Source of the DNA: Thermanaerovibrio acidaminovorans DSM 6589
Lineage (GTDB): Bacteria; Synergistota; Synergistia; Synergistales; Synergistaceae
NCBI RefSeq assembly: GCF_000024905.1
Contig: NC_013522.1
Span: forward strand, 248,001-312,000
Length of the DNA stretch: 64,000 nucleotides
Reading direction: 5' to 3'
Positions 20,747-28,648 of the stretch are shown here, piece by piece. Positions within the stretch are counted from its first letter, which is position 1, and each line of letters opens with the position of its first letter. A program made the translations under genes and the position numbers. Below the pieces are notes generated by a model. That model was not told where the DNA came from. It worked only from the letters and a program-made list of their open reading frames with translations, and ran no database searches.

Positions 20747-20751
20747 AACGG

Positions 20752-20778
20752 GAAGGGGGGGCATAGCCCCCCTTCTAA
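20752..20778 (+). terminator. Terminator of the biotin operon
   Basis: A 9-bp stem, GAAGGGGGG (20752-20760) with CCCCCCTTC (20767-20775), and a six-base loop, beginning five bases after the bioA stop. Its downstream T-run is weak. It also faces the converging small secreted gene and may serve both. Confidence 0.7.
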
Positions 20779-20788
20779 TCGCCCTCCC

Positions 20789-21144
20789 TCAGGGCCAAGT
20801 GGCCGTCACGGATACCCTCGCCTTCTGCTGGGGAAACTGCCCCTCCTTGAGGTTAGGATAGAACCGGTACGTGCCGCTGGGAAGCCTGAACCCTATGGCC
20901 TCTGCACCGGTGCTGAAGGAGGCGGATACGGGACCCTCGATCCAGAACCCATCCCCATCGCAGGTGACGTTGGTTATCGTGGCGGTGACCCCCGCGGGGA
21001 CAATTAAGGGCGTTGACGTCAGCTCCGCGTTCCTCCCCGCGCGCCTCTAACCTGGGTGCCCGATCCGGTGCCACTTCCCGCCAGGGCGGACCCGGCCACC
21101 AACAGCACCAGCACCATCGCAAGTGCCAAACTGGTTCCCCTCAT
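20789..21144 (-). pseudogene. Small secreted protein with a frameshift
   Basis: ATG 21144 opens a signal peptide (MRGTSLALAMVLVLLVAGSALA) and the frame stops early with TGA at 21022. From about 21045 down, a second frame reads smoothly from 'AELTSTPLIVPAGVTATITN' to 'QQKARVSVTATWP' and stops at 20789. The two parts join if one base is added in the GC-rich stretch at 21022-21046 (a GGGG run lies at 21035-21038). The joined product would be a small exported beta-rich protein of about 118 residues with one cysteine in the mature part. I do not recognise the family. A good promoter lies upstream. Confidence 0.55.
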
Positions 21145-21243: not shown

Positions 21244-22830
21244 TCAGATGGCGCCGTTCAGCCTCTGGAGCAGATCCTGTCGGTCCCGGTGGACCAGCAT
21301 GACCACGTTGACCGTCTCAAGCACGTCCCCCACGGGCTCGAAGAGCCCGTCGTAGATGGTGTCGTTCAGGTGCTTGGCCACCCGCTCCTCGCAGGCCACC
21401 AGGTCCACCCGGTTCCACATGTGTTCCGCGAAGCTCAGCGGGTCGTTATCTATCTCAACCACCCTTGCCCCCCGGGACTTGAGGATGGATATGAGGTTGC
21501 CGGTGCCCCCCCTCTGGACCCCAACGGACATCCCCTTCATGTCCCGGAGGGATCCCAGGTCCCTGGTCCTTCCGAGACCGTCCTTCCGGGAGGCGTAGAT
21601 GCGGGTCTTGAAGGTCCCGTAGGGCCTGGTGGCCGCCACGGGGAAGCTGTCGAAGTAGGAGTTCGGCCAGCCGGCGTTCAGGATGACGTCTATCCGGCCC
21701 TCCACAAGCAGGGGGAAGACCTGGTCCCACGGGGCACCGATGAAGTCCCCATTTAGCCCCAGGGCGGAGGCGGCCTTCCGGGCCACCTCCACGCTTATCC
21801 CCTTGGAGGTCCCCTCGGACAGGTAGACCCAGGGGGCGTAGGAGTCGTCGTGGCCGAAGGTGATCCTCCCCGGGACGGAAGCGGCGGACCGGATCTTGAG
21901 GAACCGATCGAAGTTCCTCCTGGCCTCCTTGGCGTACCGCTCCAGGCCGGAGAAGAGGGACCTCCGCTTGGCCTCCTGGGCGGTGGACACCTCCACCGCC
22001 TCGCTTATCTTGTGTCCGATGGCGCAGGTCCTCTCCAGCACCGCCCCCTCGATCTCACCCTGTTCCTCCACCCGCCTGGATATGTCCTGCAACTTCGTGG
22101 AGGAGGCCCTGAGGTTCGCCATGGAGCCCTTGAGGGTCCTGGCCCCCTCCAGGATCTCCTGGACCGTGGCCTCCTTCAGCTCCCGGAAGGTCGCGATCCC
22201 CTCCTGGGTTTCCTGGGTCTTCTTGGACAGCATCTCCATCAGGGAGGCGATCCTCTTGGTTATCCCGGTGCTCTCCGCCGCCAGCTTCCGCACCTCGTCG
22301 GCCACCACAGCAAAGCCCTTGCCGTGCTCCCCCGCCCGGGCGGCCTCGATGGCGGCGTTGAGGGCCAGCAGGTTGGTCTGCTTGGCCACCCGCTCGATGC
22401 CGTTGAGCATCTCCGCCACGTCCTTGGCCACCGACGCCAGGGAGGCCACCAGCCCCTGAACGTCCTCGAAGGACCGGTTCATCTCGTCCAGGGACCTGGT
22501 GGCCCGCTCCATCATGTCCGTGCTCCTGTCCCCGTCCTGGACCGCCATCTCCAGGCTGCCCTTCATGGACTCCACGTCCCTTATGACCTCCGCCATCCGC
22601 CTGCGGCTGCTCTCCATCTCGTTGCAGGCCTTGTCCAGCGCCAGCCGCCCCTGGTCTAGCTCCCTCAGGAGCCCCGAGGAGTCAGCGCTAGCCAGCGCCA
22701 CCGCCAGATGCTGCTCCCGGAGGAACGACCTCAGCAGCCCGTCCAGGTCCGACAGGGCCTCTATCATCTGATCGGCCGATGCGCCGCCCCCGTCGCCGGA
22801 GGGCAGGCCGAGCCCGGGTCTCTGATCCAT
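21244..22830 (-). CDS. Soluble methyl-accepting chemotaxis protein with C-terminal SBP_bac_3 solute-binding domain
   Basis: 528 residues. There is no signal peptide and no membrane helix. Residues about 1-300 are a long coiled coil with the MCP hairpin tip '[35 protein letters not shown]' written here in two parts: '[18 protein letters not shown]' and '[17 protein letters not shown]' (about 148-185). From about 305 a type 3 periplasmic-binding-protein domain follows: '[15 protein letters not shown]', '[16 protein letters not shown]', '[20 protein letters not shown]', '[18 protein letters not shown]', '[12 protein letters not shown]'. This places a normally extracytoplasmic amino-acid-binding fold in the cytoplasm at the end of a receptor. 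It may sense internal amino acids. ATG 22830 is five bases after GGGGGAG; GTG 22836 is possible. Confidence 0.8.
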
Positions 22831-22936
22831 CTCCACTCCCCCTCACCGTAGGGTAGTCCATGCAAATTCTCACACGGATCCACCCCAAGAGGTACCTCAA
22901 CGGTTTACACCCCCGGTGGCACCGGTTGACCTAAAT

Positions 22937-22963
22937 GAAAAGGGAGGGGGTCACCCCCCTCCC
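22937..22963 (-). terminator. Terminator of the selenium/sulfur operon
   Basis: On the minus strand GGGAGGGGG and CCCCCTCCC form a stem with a short loop followed by TTTTC, 19 bases after the tusA-like stop. Confidence 0.75.
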
Positions 22964-22981: not shown

Positions 22982-23203
22982 CTAGCGGCTGAAGGTCACC
23001 CTGAAGTCCCCCTCCGGGGTCTCCTCGAAGCTGACCTTGAGGCCCTTCGACGTGCCGAACCGGATCACGTTCTCCCTGGAGGTCACGGTGCTCACCAGCA
23101 CCGTCAGGGGCAGGTCACCGGACTCCTCCAGGGCCCGCCGGGTCATGAGAACCGGCTGGGGGCACGACAGCCCCCGGGCGTCCACTATCCTGTCGGAAGA
23201 CAT
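22982..23203 (-). CDS. TusA/YeeD-family sulfur-carrier-like protein
   Basis: A 73-residue protein of the TusA/SirA/YeeD fold. The carrier cysteine is in 'DARGLSCPQPVLMTRRALEE' (Cys14), the family signature CPxP, followed by the 'VLVSTVTSRENVIRFGTSKG' core. It sits directly after yedE, the arrangement known for YeeE/YedE transporter partners, so it probably accepts imported sulfur or selenium species as a persulfide or perselenide. ATG 23203 has GGAGG about ten bases upstream. It is last in the operon. Confidence 0.88.
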   Translation of the reverse strand: MSSDRIVDARGLSCPQPVLMTRRALEESGDLPLTVLVSTVTSRENVIRFGTSKGLKVSFEETPEGDFRVTFSR

Positions 23204-23219
23204 GGGAAAACCCTCCTCC

Positions 23220-24323
23220 CTAGACGTTCTCGTTCCTGTTGAGGAAGCCCACCGCCACGCAGAAGGCCATACCCAGCGCCCAGGCCCCCATCACGTAGGG
23301 GGACGGCCCCTTTGGAGTGCTGGCCAGTGTGAAGTTGTGGGCGAAGGCGGCCCCTACCAGCATGCCCAGCACGAACACCGACGCATCCGAGTCCCCCTCG
23401 CCGGCCATTATCACCTGCCTGCCCGGGCAACCCCCCGCCAGGGTGAACGCCAGCCCCGACAGGACCATCCCAAGGAAGTTCCAAAGGTGGTTGGCGTGGG
23501 CCACCGGCTGTCCCTCCATTCCGAGCTTGAACTGCCCGAGCGCCAGGTTGGTGATCACCGCCGTCACCACCAGGGCACCTATGCCCCAGAAGAGGTGGGG
23601 GTCCTTCAGCATCATCAGGTCCCGGAAGGCCCCAACGGTGCAGAACCGGCTCCTCTGGGCCATCCAGCCGATAAGTAGCCCCGCTACCAGGGATATGGCC
23701 ACCGAGGCGTGCATGGCCCCCGGCCCCTGGGCGGAGAAGAAGATGGGACCCGTAGGGTCCCCGTCGGGGGTGCGCCCCATGAGTGGAGACGCCACCAGCA
23801 GGGCCAGGAGCCCCAGCATGGCCACGGGCATCACGTAGCCCGTGGCCCGGGTGGCGGGCCTGGACCTGCCCAGGTTGAACCCGTTCCAGAGGAAGTATAT
23901 GCCCAACGCTATGCCGGCGATCAGCCCCGCTATCCCCGCCACGGCGGTAAGGTCCCCCGCGGCGAGCCTCAGGTACGCCCGCCAGGGGCAGCCCAGGAAT
24001 ATCAGCGCCCCCACCATGGCGAAGAAGCCCAGGAAGAAACGGATGATGGGGGAGGAGCCCGCCCGGGGCCTCATCTCCCCGAATACCAACGAGGCCCCTA
24101 AGGCCCCCAACAGGATGCCCGGTATCTCGGGCCTCAGGTATTGAACCACCGCCGCCCGGTGCAGCCCGAGTCCCCCCGCTATGTCCCGGGTGAAGCAAGC
24201 CACGCAGATCCCCATGTTCCCCGGGTTCCCCAGGTGCACCAGGAGCGGTGCCAGGACCCCCACCGCCACGCCGGTTATCACCGGACCCAACCGGGACGTG
24301 AGCAAGCCGCCTGCCTTGTTCAA
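23220..24323 (-). CDS. yedE: YedE/YeeE-family membrane transporter linked to selenium metabolism
   Basis: About 367 residues with roughly ten membrane helices and two internal sulf_transp repeats. Conserved cysteine-glycine spots are visible: 'NMGICVACFTRDIAGG' near 34-49, 'FLGCPWRAYLRLAAGD' near 105, 'RSRFCTVGAFRD' near 225 and 'LAGGCPGRQVI' near 300. Family members next to yedF and a class V desulfurase are associated with selenium use; a thiosulfate or selenium-compound importer is inferred. TTG 24323 is eight bases after GGAGG; ATG 24329 would be only two bases away and GTG 24365 lies in the intergenic stretch. Confidence 0.82.
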   Translation of the reverse strand: MNKAGGLLTSRLGPVITGVAVGVLAPLLVHLGNPGNMGICVACFTRDIAGGLGLHRAAVVQYLRPEIPGILLGALGASLVFGEMRPRAGSSPIIRFFLGFFAMVGALIFLGCPWRAYLRLAAGDLTAVAGIAGLIAGIALGIYFLWNGFNLGRSRPATRATGYVMPVAMLGLLALLVASPLMGRTPDGDPTGPIFFSAQGPGAMHASVAISLVAGLLIGWMAQRSRFCTVGAFRDLMMLKDPHLFWGIGALVVTAVITNLALGQFKLGMEGQPVAHANHLWNFLGMVLSGLAFTLAGGCPGRQVIMAGEGDSDASVFVLGMLVGAAFAHNFTLASTPKGPSPYVMGAWALGMAFCVAVGFLNRNENV

Positions 24324-24366
24324 ACCCATCGCCTCCTTCACAAGTATTCCATAATGAGGTCCCACC

Positions 24367-25530
24367 TCACATGTGGGATCTCAAGACCTCCTGGATGGCC
24401 CCCACCGCCATCCGGACCTCCTCCTCGGTGTTGAAGTACCCCACCGAGAGCCTAAGCGCCCCCTGGGGGAAGGTCCCCAGGGTCCTGTGGGCCAGGGGTG
24501 CACAGTGGAGCCCCGGCCGGGTCTCTATGCCCCGCTCGGATAGCTCCATGGCCAGGGTCCCGTTGTCCACCGACGGGTGGTTCAATGCCACCACCCCGAG
24601 GCCACGCCGGGAGTCCCTGGGCCCCAGGATCTGGACCCCCTTGATCTGGGAGAGCCCCTCCAGCAGGATCCCCTTGAGGGCCATCTCCCTCTCCCGGATC
24701 CCTTGGATCCCCACCTCCCGGATCCAGCCCAGCGCAGCCCGGAGTCCCACTATGCCCGGAAGGTTTGGGGTCCCCGCCTCGAACTTGTCGGGCATCACAT
24801 TAGGCTGCACCTCCTCATGGGAGAAGCTACCGGTGCCCCCGTCCACCAGAGGGGAGCAGGCCTCCGCCATGTGGGGGTTCCAAACGATCCCCCCTACCCC
24901 CTGGGGCCCCATGAGCCCCTTGTGTCCGGTGAAGCACAGGGCCCCAAGGCCCAGATCCTCCACGCTGATGGGCTCCACCCCGGCGGTCTGGGCGGAATCC
25001 AGCACCAGCGGGACCCCACGCAGGCGGCAGGCTTCGGATATGGCCTCCAGGTCCTGCAGGGTGCCGCACACGTTGCTGCCGTGGCACAGCACCGCCAGAT
25101 CCGCCCCCTGGAGGGCCTGGCCCAGGTCGCCAAGGGGCAGGAACCCCTCAGCATCGCACTGCACCACCCGCACAGTGACCCCCGAGGCCTCAAGGCGCCT
25201 CAAGGGGCGAATCACCGCGTTGTGCTCCATGGAGGAGGTTACCACCGTCATGCCAGGCCTCAGGTACCCCTTGAGCACCACGTTCAACGCCTCGGTGACG
25301 TTGGATGTGAAGGTAACGTACCTGGGATCCCCGTCGGGAGCGCCCAGGAGATCCGCCAGCTCCTCCCGGCAGGAGAGGACCTGGTCCATGGTCTCCAGGT
25401 CCCCCGGGGAGGCGGAGCCCCTGGCCAGGTTGGCCCCCCCATGGGTCATGAAGCGGTACATGGCCTCCGCCACCGCCGGCGGCTTGGGCCAGGTGGTGGC
25501 CGCGTTGTTGAGGTAAACCCGGCAGGACAT
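24367..25530 (-). CDS. Class V aminotransferase, cysteine desulfurase/selenocysteine lyase family
   Basis: A 387-residue PLP enzyme. It opens with 'VYLNNAATTWPKPPAV', typical of the cysteine-desulfurase family found with selenium genes. PLP-site residues: 'TSSMEHNAVIRP' with the stacking His near 100, 'LVLDSAQTAG' near 177, and the Schiff-base lysine in 'CFTGHKGLMGPQGVGG' near 203. The flexible catalytic loop reads 'TRPGLHCAPLAHRTLGT' with a cysteine near 340, as in active desulfurases. It likely releases sulfur or selenium for the YedF/TusA-like carriers. ATG 25530 overlaps the yedF stop. Confidence 0.87.
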   Translation of the reverse strand: MSCRVYLNNAATTWPKPPAVAEAMYRFMTHGGANLARGSASPGDLETMDQVLSCREELADLLGAPDGDPRYVTFTSNVTEALNVVLKGYLRPGMTVVTSSMEHNAVIRPLRRLEASGVTVRVVQCDAEGFLPLGDLGQALQGADLAVLCHGSNVCGTLQDLEAISEACRLRGVPLVLDSAQTAGVEPISVEDLGLGALCFTGHKGLMGPQGVGGIVWNPHMAEACSPLVDGGTGSFSHEEVQPNVMPDKFEAGTPNLPGIVGLRAALGWIREVGIQGIREREMALKGILLEGLSQIKGVQILGPRDSRRGLGVVALNHPSVDNGTLAMELSERGIETRPGLHCAPLAHRTLGTFPQGALRLSVGYFNTEEEVRMAVGAIQEVLRSHM

Positions 25531-26138
25531 CAGCCGATCACCACCGGCTTCGCCGCGGCGAACACCTCGGACGTGATCTCGAACATGTTGGATATGGAGC
25601 CCACGCACACCCGGTCGGTGACGCCGAAGTGCTTGGTGCAGGTGCCGCAGACCAGCACCCTGGTGCCCTGGGCCTCCATCTCCTTCAGCGTGTCGCTGGC
25701 GGAGGAGTCGGGCAGGGAGAGGAACACCCCGCCGTTCATGAGGGCCACCACCGACACGGTCCCCGCCTGCCTCATGGTGTCCAGGAAGGCCTTCATGAGC
25801 GCCTCCCCCAGCTCCGCCGACTCGCCCCCCAGGGTCCTGGACAGGATGAGGAGCCCCATGGGGGCCTTGGACGGCGCGTCGGACGGGCAGGAGCAGGGCG
25901 GGTGATCCTCGGGCACCTCCGCCGGGGGAGCGGACCTCTCGGCGGTCAGCAGGATCCCCTCCGGTCCCTCGGACCTGGTCACCTGGAACCCCTGCCCCTT
26001 GAGGAACCTGGTCACGTTCTCCCCGGAGACCGGATTGTCCACCAGCACCTCCAGCCGGGAGGCCCCGCGGTCCACCGCCTCCTTGGCCATCATCACCGGC
26101 TTGGGGCACGACTGACCCCGGGCATCCACCTTAACCAA
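25530..26138 (-). CDS. yedF: YedF-like selenium-metabolism protein (TusA domain plus DsrE-like domain)
   Basis: A 202-residue two-domain protein. Residues 1-70 are a TusA-like domain with 'VDARGQSCPKPVMMAKEAV' carrying the carrier cysteine. Residues about 95-200 form a DsrE/peroxiredoxin-like domain with 'APMGLLILSRTLG', 'SVVALMNGGVFLSL' and a cysteine pair in 'VLVCGTCTKHFGV'. A linker has 'CSC'. This fusion defines YedF of selenium clusters. TTG 26138 is eight bases after GGAGG and gives the expected N-terminus; the longer frame upstream overlaps DUF3343 in another frame. Confidence 0.87.
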   Translation of the reverse strand: MVKVDARGQSCPKPVMMAKEAVDRGASRLEVLVDNPVSGENVTRFLKGQGFQVTRSEGPEGILLTAERSAPPAEVPEDHPPCSCPSDAPSKAPMGLLILSRTLGGESAELGEALMKAFLDTMRQAGTVSVVALMNGGVFLSLPDSSASDTLKEMEAQGTRVLVCGTCTKHFGVTDRVCVGSISNMFEITSEVFAAAKPVVIG

Positions 26139-26158
26139 AGGGATCACCTCCGTAGTTT

Positions 26159-26380
26159 TCAATTGGATTCCACCACCCGTACCCTCAGTTTGAGCTCCGA
26201 GGCGGCCTCCAGGGCCCGCTCCACCAGCTCCCCACTCATCTTCAGGGCTATGCCGCAGCTCTCGGTCAGGTGCCTGGGGGAGGGGCATATGTGGTGCTCC
26301 AGCCCCACCTCCCTGAGACGTCGGTGCAACATCATCCCCTCCGAGGCGCTCTCGAAGAGGCAGTAGACCCACCCGGCCAT
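26159..26380 (-). CDS. DUF3343 putative Se/S carrier-like protein
   Basis: A 73-residue protein matching the DUF3343 (putative Se/S carrier) pattern: 'YCLFESASEGMMLHRRLRE', then 'ICPSPRHLTESCGIALKM' with the conserved CGIALK-type motif near 42-47, ending in a basic strand. In selenium clusters it accompanies yedF and the desulfurase, and sulfur or selenium transfer through the cysteine is the usual proposal. ATG 26380 has a weak ribosome site but lies two bases after the activase stop, so coupling is likely. Confidence 0.83.
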   Translation of the reverse strand: MAGWVYCLFESASEGMMLHRRLREVGLEHHICPSPRHLTESCGIALKMSGELVERALEAASELKLRVRVVESN

Positions 26381-26382
26381 CC

Positions 26383-27117
26383 TTAATTACCCATGGCCGC
26401 CAGGGCGGCGCCGATGGCCCCCGCGTAGGCCCCGTTGGGGAGCGGGATCAGCCGCACCGACCGGGACGACAGGGCCTCCCCCGCGCCGGATACCTCCGAC
26501 AGCCCCCCGGTGAAGGCGAAGTCCCCCTTGGACAGGCAGGACGCCAACGCCTCGAGCCGGCCCCTGAGGGACTCGAATATGCCCCTGGCCACCTCCCCCC
26601 TGGGGGTCCCCTTCGAGAGGAGGGAGATCACCTCGCTCTCGGCGAAGACGGCGCACATGGAGCTCACCGGTGCGGACCGCTGGGCCCTAATGGCCTCCTG
26701 GATCATATCCTGCACTCCTATCCCCAGCACCCGCCCCATGTTCTCCAGGAACCTGCCGGTGCCGGCGGCGCAACGGTCGTTGACCCGGAAGTCCAGCACC
26801 CTCCCGGATCGGTCCATCTCTATTGCCTTGCTGTCCTGGCCCCCCACGTCCAGCACCAGGGTGGTGTCCCCCTTAAGGTGCCTGGCCCCCAGGGCGTGGG
26901 CGGATATCTCGGACAGGACCCGACACGCGGGGAAGACCTCCCGGAGAAGGTGCCGGCCGTAGCCGGTCACCCCCGCGGAGGATGCGCGGGGCAGGAGCTT
27001 AGGAAGGCCTGTCAGGTCCGCCCCCTCGGAGGAGATCCTCCCCAGGTCCGCCACCCGGTGCCGGTCCATCAGGGCCCACTTTATGAACCGGCTGCCTGCG
27101 TCTATCCCAAGGATCAC
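26383..27117 (-). CDS. 2-hydroxyacyl-CoA dehydratase activase-like ATPase (HgdC/BadF family)
   Basis: A 244-residue ASKHA-fold ATPase. Phosphate-binding loops are 'LGIDAGSRFIKWAL' at the N-terminus and 'LVLDVGGQDSKAI' near 92-104. The two cysteines that hold the single 4Fe-4S cluster between monomers are in 'VNDRCAAGTGRFLE' near 121 and 'SSMCAVFAESEV' near 160. The family injects an electron into a partner dehydratase or double-cubane protein at the cost of ATP; the partner is the gene just upstream. GTG 27117 is chosen. It reads directly into DUF3343. Confidence 0.85.
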   Translation of the reverse strand: MILGIDAGSRFIKWALMDRHRVADLGRISSEGADLTGLPKLLPRASSAGVTGYGRHLLREVFPACRVLSEISAHALGARHLKGDTTLVLDVGGQDSKAIEMDRSGRVLDFRVNDRCAAGTGRFLENMGRVLGIGVQDMIQEAIRAQRSAPVSSMCAVFAESEVISLLSKGTPRGEVARGIFESLRGRLEALASCLSKGDFAFTGGLSEVSGAGEALSSRSVRLIPLPNGAYAGAIGAALAAMGN

Positions 27118-27137
27118 GGTGATGACTTTCCCCTGCC

Positions 27138-28409
27138 CTAGAGGCTCTCCAGGAAGGCCTCTATCCTGGTCCTCATCTGTCCCTCGTCCCCGGGGGCGTA
27201 GTCGGTCTCCAGCGCCAGGAAGGGGATCCCCTCCGCCTTCATCCGGCGCTGCAGAGACCCCTGTTCCACCTGGTAGGTGGAGCAGAAGCTCAGCGTAACG
27301 TCCACCACCCCGTCCACCTTGTACTCCCGGGCCAGGCGCACCACGTCGTCTGCCCGGCCGTCGTTGGGGGAGAAGCAGGCGCAGTTGATGTCCCGGATGT
27401 ACCGGTCCGCCAGGGCGTCCAGGAGACCATCCAGGTCCCTGGGGGAGCGATCCACCGAGCCGGTGAAGTACCTGGTCCCGGTGCAGTTCTCTTCCACCAC
27501 CACCACGGCCCCGGTGGTCTCGATCACGTGATGGACCTTCCAGTTGGGGACCACTATGGGGCTTCCGGTCAGCAGTATCCGCTTGGTTCCCTTGGGGAAT
27601 ACCCCAATACCCCCCTGCACCCTTTGGGCACACTCCTGGGCAAGCTGGGCGGTCATGGCGGTGAATCGGTCCGGATCGTCGTAGAAGGCTATCTGGGAGG
27701 CCACCAAGGCGTCGATCCCCGATATGGGGACCGGGTCCGCCTTGCGGGTCTCGTAGAGCTCCCGCAGGGCCTGCCTCTTGGCCTCCACCTTGTCTATGGC
27801 GGAGAGCAGGGAGTCGTAGGTGAGCTTCCGGCCCGAGATCCCCTCCAGGCGGGAGACCAGCCGCCGCACCTCCGCCCGCCAGAGGGCCAGCCCCTCGGGG
27901 GACTTCCGGTTCGGCAGGTCCATCACGTGGGTGGGCACCAGGCGCCCCATCTCCTCCCAGGCCTTCTTCTTGCCGTCGCAGGTGTTCTCCGCTATCACCA
28001 GGTCCACCGACTGGAAGTAGGGACAGGTCTTGGAGAGCTTGGCCCCCAGGGCGGCCTTGATCAGCGGACACAGGTTCCGGGGAAGCACCTTCTCACCCTC
28101 CGGGACCCAGAACTGGGATCCCGCGCAGAGCCCCACCATGACGCCCCCGAGGGCCATCACCAGCTCCTCCGGCACGTAGACGCAGAAGGACCCGGCCACG
28201 AAGCCCCCGTTGCGCTTGTGGTCCACCAGCTCCTTGATCCTTAGCCCGTGAACCTCCGCTATCACCATGTTGAAGTAGTCCATGCCCGATGGCCTGTCCT
28301 TCTGGTGAAGGAAGGCCCCCTCGAAGAGGGGGGGAAGGGCCGCGCAGAGCTGGTCGTGAAGCTCCAGATCCAGGCCCAGTTGGCTCCACATCTCCCGGTA
28401 GTCCGCCAT
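27138..28409 (-). CDS. 2-hydroxyacyl-CoA dehydratase subunit D / double-cubane-cluster protein family
   Basis: A 423-residue HgdB-like iron-sulfur protein. Cysteines in family positions: 'GSFCVYVPEELVMALGG' near 72, 'VGLCAGSQFW', 'PRNLCPLIKAALG', 'KTCPYFQSVDLVIAENTCDGKKK' represented by 'ENTCDGKKKAWE' near 150, 'VVVEENCTGTRYF' near 305, 'DINCACFSPN' near 340 and 'VTLSFCSTYQVEQGSL' near 370. Only one D-component gene accompanies the activase, which fits homodimeric double-cubane-cluster ATP-dependent reductases better than a heterodimeric dehydratase. Its substrate is unknown; the selenium cluster downstream hints at a difficult reduction linked to Se or S. ATG 28409 follows GGAGGA. Confidence 0.78.
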   Translation of the reverse strand: MADYREMWSQLGLDLELHDQLCAALPPLFEGAFLHQKDRPSGMDYFNMVIAEVHGLRIKELVDHKRNGGFVAGSFCVYVPEELVMALGGVMVGLCAGSQFWVPEGEKVLPRNLCPLIKAALGAKLSKTCPYFQSVDLVIAENTCDGKKKAWEEMGRLVPTHVMDLPNRKSPEGLALWRAEVRRLVSRLEGISGRKLTYDSLLSAIDKVEAKRQALRELYETRKADPVPISGIDALVASQIAFYDDPDRFTAMTAQLAQECAQRVQGGIGVFPKGTKRILLTGSPIVVPNWKVHHVIETTGAVVVVEENCTGTRYFTGSVDRSPRDLDGLLDALADRYIRDINCACFSPNDGRADDVVRLAREYKVDGVVDVTLSFCSTYQVEQGSLQRRMKAEGIPFLALETDYAPGDEGQMRTRIEAFLESL

Positions 28410-28648
28410 TGGTACACTCTCCTCCTTCCGGATCAAAGAGGGCTATAGCCTCTCTATGGACCGGAGGACGGCGGCTCGATTTGACAAGGTCCGTAAGATC
28501 TCACCCGTGGTGGACCAAGGACCTCAAGGGGAGGGTTCGACACCGCCGGCCTCCGGTAGACTCAAGGGGTGCGCGCATGACATGCGGCCTAACGATAGCT
28601 CACATAACGCGCATTCCAACCCCTCCTTCGCCGGCGATGTCCGGTACA
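28410..28648 (-). promoter_or_regulatory. Long structured 5' leader of the dehydratase/selenium operon (candidate riboregulator)
   Basis: If transcription starts from the extended -10 at 28655-28663, the leader is about 240 nt with no gene. It can form a 12-bp helix with one mismatch (28463-28474 with 28543-28554), nested AGGTCC/GGACCT pairing (28488-28493 region with 28530 region), a CACC-CGT-GGTG hairpin (28502-28512), and TGCGCG/CGCGCA pairing (about 28569 and 28608). It does not match a riboswitch class I know. No protein is evident in it. Confidence 0.4.
28463..28554. repeat. 12-bp inverted repeat bounding a 68-nt structured segment
   Basis: ggaggacggcgg at 28463-28474 is complementary, with one mismatch, to ccgccggcctcc at 28543-28554. 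The enclosed bases hold further inverted repeats. Confidence 0.8.

Follow-up and report, generated by a model that had tools for sequence, protein, structure and literature searches.

To our knowledge, what cytoplasmic chemoreceptors sense is mostly unknown. In the cytoplasmic CZB chemoreceptors – Helicobacter pylori TlpD and Salmonella McpA – the sensor is C-terminal (PMC13001251), and Pfam domains of the binding-protein kind are already known to serve cytosolic signalling proteins as sensors (PMC9602780). Neither C-terminal sensors in cytoplasmic receptors nor binding-protein domains as cytosolic sensors are new in themselves; in the literature searched, which is a part of the whole, we found no paper on an MCP that ends in an SBP_bac_3 or PhnD domain. 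Such a protein, P0001, is encoded by Thermanaerovibrio acidaminovorans Su883, a motile, thermophilic amino-acid fermenter with a chromosome of 1,848,474 bp (PMC3035242). In our main reading, to which we give a probability of roughly two in three, P0001 would be a soluble chemoreceptor that works in CheA/CheW arrays and reads a small cytoplasmic molecule through its flytrap domain.

Gene, topology and conservation of P0001

The features discussed below are listed by their positions in the window, by which we mean the whole 64,000-nucleotide stretch of DNA that was analysed, contig positions 248001-312000.

21244..22836 (-): P0001, soluble MCP with C-terminal SBP_bac_3 domain; single open frame; orthologues L002, L003 and L004
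22519..22767 (-): N-terminal coiled-coil arm of the hairpin, residues 24-106, placed by alignment with the orthologues and the genome's own MCPs
22054..22518 (-): MCPsignal domain, residues 107-261 (Pfam PF00015, 2.5e-32)
22327..22380 (-): hairpin tip predicted to contact CheA/CheW, residues 153-170 (18 residues), consensus sequence
21886..22053 (-): C-terminal coiled-coil arm running into the sensor, residues 262-317, lacking a consensus methylation site
21247..21885 (-): SBP_bac_3 (Venus flytrap) sensor, residues 318-530, lacking the last helix and the carboxylate-binding Arg
22942..22963 (-): terminator-like hairpin, 9 pairs then TTTTCATTT, between the selenium cluster and P0001

The initial annotation had described one intact frame reaching 22830, with an MCP signalling hairpin in its N-terminal part, the sensor after the hairpin and neither signal peptide nor membrane helix – in short, a cytoplasmic receptor in an amino-acid fermenter – and in all of this it holds up. 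The frame opens with a GTG at 22836 (530 aa), and 22830 is an ATG two codons in (528 aa), which is the likelier start because a better-spaced GGGGGAG lies ahead of it. Pfam places MCPsignal (E 2.5e-32; 112.5 bits, cut-off 34.6) before SBP_bac_3 (PF00497, residues 325-530; E 9.3e-13; 48.5 bits, cut-off 26.4), and the hairpin tip follows the MCP consensus. The C-terminal arm aligns without gaps to the other MCPs of the genome, so that the sensor replaces the short C-terminal tail found in those proteins. The two arms of an MCP hairpin finish at one and the same pole, and a C-terminal sensor therefore sits where an N-terminal one would. The domain order had been called reversed: the sensor does come last in P0001, but the term overstates the matter, C-terminal sensors being known from the TlpD/CZB receptors (PMC13001251).

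A hydropathy scan found neither a signal peptide nor a membrane helix in P0001, whose top 19-residue value is 1.27 against 1.8-3.1 in the membrane-bound MCPs of the same genome. A missed upstream membrane segment was considered and ruled out, since only 2 codons separate the GTG from the upstream stop; in the orthologues, too, the upstream region was checked and no membrane segment was found. P0001 is accordingly predicted to be cytoplasmic.

Three further Synergistota genomes encode orthologues, which are 74, 73 and 56% identical to P0001; two of these genomes belong to the same genus and the third to a sister genus. Domain order, C-terminal end and synteny are kept throughout the four genomes and two genera. 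The type is thus conserved vertically, and its order, shared by three orthologues, is neither a chance arrangement nor a frameshift artefact. Identity between orthologues is higher in the SBP domain (64-77%) than in the N-terminal arm (41-69%). Between P0001 and bioA, at about 20750-21142 (-) of the window, lies a gene for a small secreted protein that is present in the three Thermanaerovibrio-genus genomes and was not detected in genome G124.

The pocket, the missing helix and the candidate ligands

Of the full SBP_bac_3-like fold that had been proposed for the C-terminus, most stands. In profile searches, the last 214 residues of P0001 align from end to end with solved amino-acid-binding proteins, the best matches including AncQR (4zv1, 2.7e-13) and Thermotoga maritima ArgBP (6ggp/6ggv, 2.1e-10). 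What is missing is the last helix: the domain ends where it would begin, 14-25 residues short of its homologues, in all four orthologous proteins. T. maritima ArgBP built without its C-terminal helix retains its stability and its affinity for arginine, and in simulations this helix-less protein opens and closes more freely (PMC9402392); the truncated structures, 6ggp and 6ggv, are among the best matches to the P0001 sensor. By this analogy, the natural absence of the helix is compatible with function. AlphaFold2, run on the sensor domain with single-sequence input, gave no usable model (mean pLDDT 30.7).

The clamp of the SBP_bac_3 fold, as known from the LAO, HisJ and GlnBP structures, consists of an Arg that grips the alpha-carboxylate of the ligand and an Asp that grips its ammonium group. 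In an alignment with free binding proteins, AncQR and ArgBP, the Arg position is Asp or Asn and the Asp position is Glu in P0001 and its orthologues (4/4 in both cases). Loss of the Arg clamp makes an ordinary amino-acid ligand doubtful, and the ligand of P0001 is probably not a standard alpha-amino acid. An invariant Arg442 (QRGG) lies in the pocket loop and could in principle stand in for the lost Arg. Apart from the clamp, the pocket is unusually conserved – invariant residues fill 14 of 16 ligand-site positions, compared with 96 of the 197 other positions of the domain (Fisher p 0.002, indicative, as only four related sequences enter the count) – so that some ligand is likely. We read the sensor as a putative working flytrap whose specificity has changed.

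The strongest competitor of that reading is the sensor of internal amino acids proposed by the initial annotation, in which the flytrap would take arginine, glutamate, histidine or another amino acid that the cell can ferment. It draws on the best solved relatives of the domain, which bind Arg or Gln, and on the habits of the host, which ferments Glu, His, Arg, Orn, Lys and Thr (PMC3035242). However, both clamp residues are replaced in all four orthologues, and the paralogue P0002, whose sensor retains the canonical Arg and Asp, fits such a role better; the proposal is not supported for P0001, and we regard it as unlikely.

The altered pocket could also mean that ligand binding was lost and that the domain became a docking or spacer module. 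The SBP domain would then serve in dimerisation, array packing or protein docking, and the receptor would sense by other means or act as array filler. Both the Arg clamp and the last helix have gone, as this account would have it, and flytraps of the BvgS type are SBP_bac_3 sensors that can act without a classical amino-acid ligand (PMC5829827). Against it stand the pocket, which is better conserved than the remaining domain, and two more receptor types with binding-protein tails, which argue for sensing; we hold it to be somewhat less probable again than the amino-acid sensor.

A last candidate ligand comes from the genome context. Upstream of P0001 on the same strand (window 22982-28436 (-)) lies a selenium cluster comprising TusA-like, YedE, Sec-lyase-like, YedF, acyl-CoA dehydratase activase and double-cubane reductase genes, with YedE (TIGR04112, 487 bits, cut-off 200) and YedF (TIGR03527, 129 bits, cut-off 110) both above threshold. 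The SelD frame of the genome (contig 842885-843811, L097) contains one in-frame TGA, which suggests that selenocysteine is probably used. The cluster adjoins P0001 in all four genomes; the GH18 and bio (biotin) genes on the other side are equally syntenic (4/4). The terminator-like hairpin suggests that P0001 has its own transcript. That P0001, as the next gene downstream of the cluster in four genomes, senses a selenium or sulfur metabolite is improbable, for although the YedE and YedF matches, the link of the family to selenium (PMC5322559), the probable selenocysteine and a pocket of a non-amino-acid kind all point that way, the entire block is syntenic, so that adjacency is not independent evidence, and the terminator-like hairpin parts the cluster from P0001.

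Signalling, methylation and related fusions in Synergistota

Returning to the soluble flytrap receptor, we picture the following course. P0001 would enter CheA/CheW arrays through its normal hairpin tip. Its Venus-flytrap domain, of a fold that usually serves outside the cell membrane, would derive from a periplasmic solute-binding protein and is attached where the second coiled-coil arm ends. Ligand would close the flytrap, which lies at the end of the hairpin dimer away from the tip, and closure would shift the C-terminal arm or alter its packing, changing CheA activity at the tip and, with it, swimming. Ligand binding and the effect on CheA are both inferred from sequence. Homologues of CheA and CheW are present by domain match: six CheW-domain matches, including two in CheA-sized frames (680 and 698 aa). 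Cytoplasmic arrays in other bacteria have two CheA/CheW layers, and the sensor ends of the receptors come together in the space between them (PMC3964821); by analogy the binding-protein tails could lie there.

P0001 is an MCP-type receptor by fold, its methyl-accepting status being at most putative. Each of the genome's 11 standard full-length MCPs (L059-L069) has a consensus methylation motif near +95, counted from the tip, and L071 has one at +102. The +95 site was found in none of the 15 SBP_bac_3 fusion frames and none of the 15 PhnD fusion frames scanned, and P0001 has neither a full nor a relaxed motif, nor do its orthologues, although the motif used is a simple consensus and weaker sites could exist. 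The site is also missing from L072, a cytoplasmic-type receptor with no binding-protein sensor, so these fusions are not alone in lacking it. The missing site suggests that P0001 probably reports a standing ligand level – a metabolic state – with little methylation-based adaptation, and that such receptors report a set level instead of adapting.

P0001 is one of three types of C-terminal binding-protein fusion in its genome, the other two, P0002 and MCP-PhnD, being newly recognised here as further cytoplasmic MCPs with this arrangement. P0002 (contig 141406-143082, L008/L009) is a second MCP-SBP_bac_3 fusion in the same order (MCPsignal 7.3e-29, SBP_bac_3 5.3e-10), of a type present in Synergistota families f1, f3, f6 and f7; some of these proteins have short hydrophobic N-terminal segments, a topology in which the sensor would still be cytoplasmic. 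Proteins that are related to the P0002 sensor but stand free (36-44% identical) have signal peptides, which argues that this sensor was internalised. In the SBP-domain tree, the P0002 sensors group with the free proteins, apart from P0001, and one origin for both types is rejected (p 0.027); on this tree, the two fused SBP_bac_3 sensors arose independently. The third receptor, MCP-PhnD, lies about 17 kb left of the window (contig 229123-230847, L100:924-2648; Phosphonate-bd PF12974 1.4e-65, MCPsignal 1.4e-28) and belongs to a type found in families f1, f3, f4, f5, f6 and f11; among the loci inspected, 15 have hairpin and PhnD domain in a single frame. On the question whether the fusion hairpins share one origin, the hairpin tree returned a borderline AU p of 0.05.

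Several irregularities were seen among these and neighbouring receptors. The hairpin tip of P0002 is odd (QTKLLSLNASIEAERAGE), and its orthologue L010 (G174) has an in-frame TAG within the MCP part, from a pseudogene or a draft-assembly error. The tandem MCP-SBP genes L027 and L012 of G124 differ at the conserved tip, with AGEHGRASPWWRRRCAPLAE in one copy and AGEHGRGFSVVAEEVRTLAE in the other, as if by two compensating frameshifts or through an assembly error. At contig 133618-134028 (L073), a soluble MCP begins with a Rossmann/NAD-binding-like segment (weak PF03447 match, 0.004), possibly a redox sensor or one derived from a dehydrogenase.

With three separate fusion types in one genome, the cell probably monitors its own small molecules and steers its swimming by them, and their number in so small a genome suggests a general path from transport protein to internal metabolic sensor. 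Synergistota may repeatedly have taken a periplasmic binding protein – from two SBP_bac_3 lineages and from PhnD – and made it the C-terminal sensor of a cytoplasmic chemoreceptor lacking consensus methylation sites. The result would be a phylum-wide class through which metabolite levels inside the cell act on swimming with no ordinary adaptation by methylation; on this wider proposal we are evenly divided. As the ligand chemistry of this domain class is well understood, its placement inside the cell opens the question of what such receptors sense to direct test.

Comparison with known systems

Genome contigs were scanned with full-length P0001 and with a concatenated alignment that covered the two C-domain types, and no relatives were confirmed; only exact short patterns were scanned, so close relatives appear rare, and absence of the architecture outside Synergistota is not implied. 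Scans of viral contigs returned nothing useful, and a tblastn search of plasmids found no fusion of the P0002 or PhnD type. Plasmid matches from Salinivibrio and Vibrio were rejected as fusions, each being two adjacent genes (the Salinivibrio locus is annotated as such). These loci resemble P0001 in having the MCP and SBP families side by side in the same order; they differ in that two genes are involved, the Vibrio SBP having a signal peptide and the Vibrio MCP membrane helices.

The periplasmic SBP_bac_3 proteins ArgBP (6ggp/6ggv) and AncQR (4zv1) are homologous to P0001 across its whole sensor domain (E about 1e-10 to 1e-13). Unlike them, P0001 is fused to an MCP and lacks a signal peptide, the carboxylate-binding Arg and the C-terminal helix.

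With TlpD and McpA, P0001 shares a soluble MCP, a sensor placed after the signalling domain and the absence of a membrane helix (PMC13001251), but the sensor there is a small zinc-binding CZB domain, of which Pfam found no match in P0001, and here a Venus-flytrap binding protein. In the BvgS family, as is proposed for P0001, a flytrap drives a cytoplasmic signalling coiled coil (PMC5829827), yet the BvgS flytrap is N-terminal and lies outside the membrane, whereas that of P0001 is C-terminal and, with no membrane segment in the protein, would lie inside the cell.
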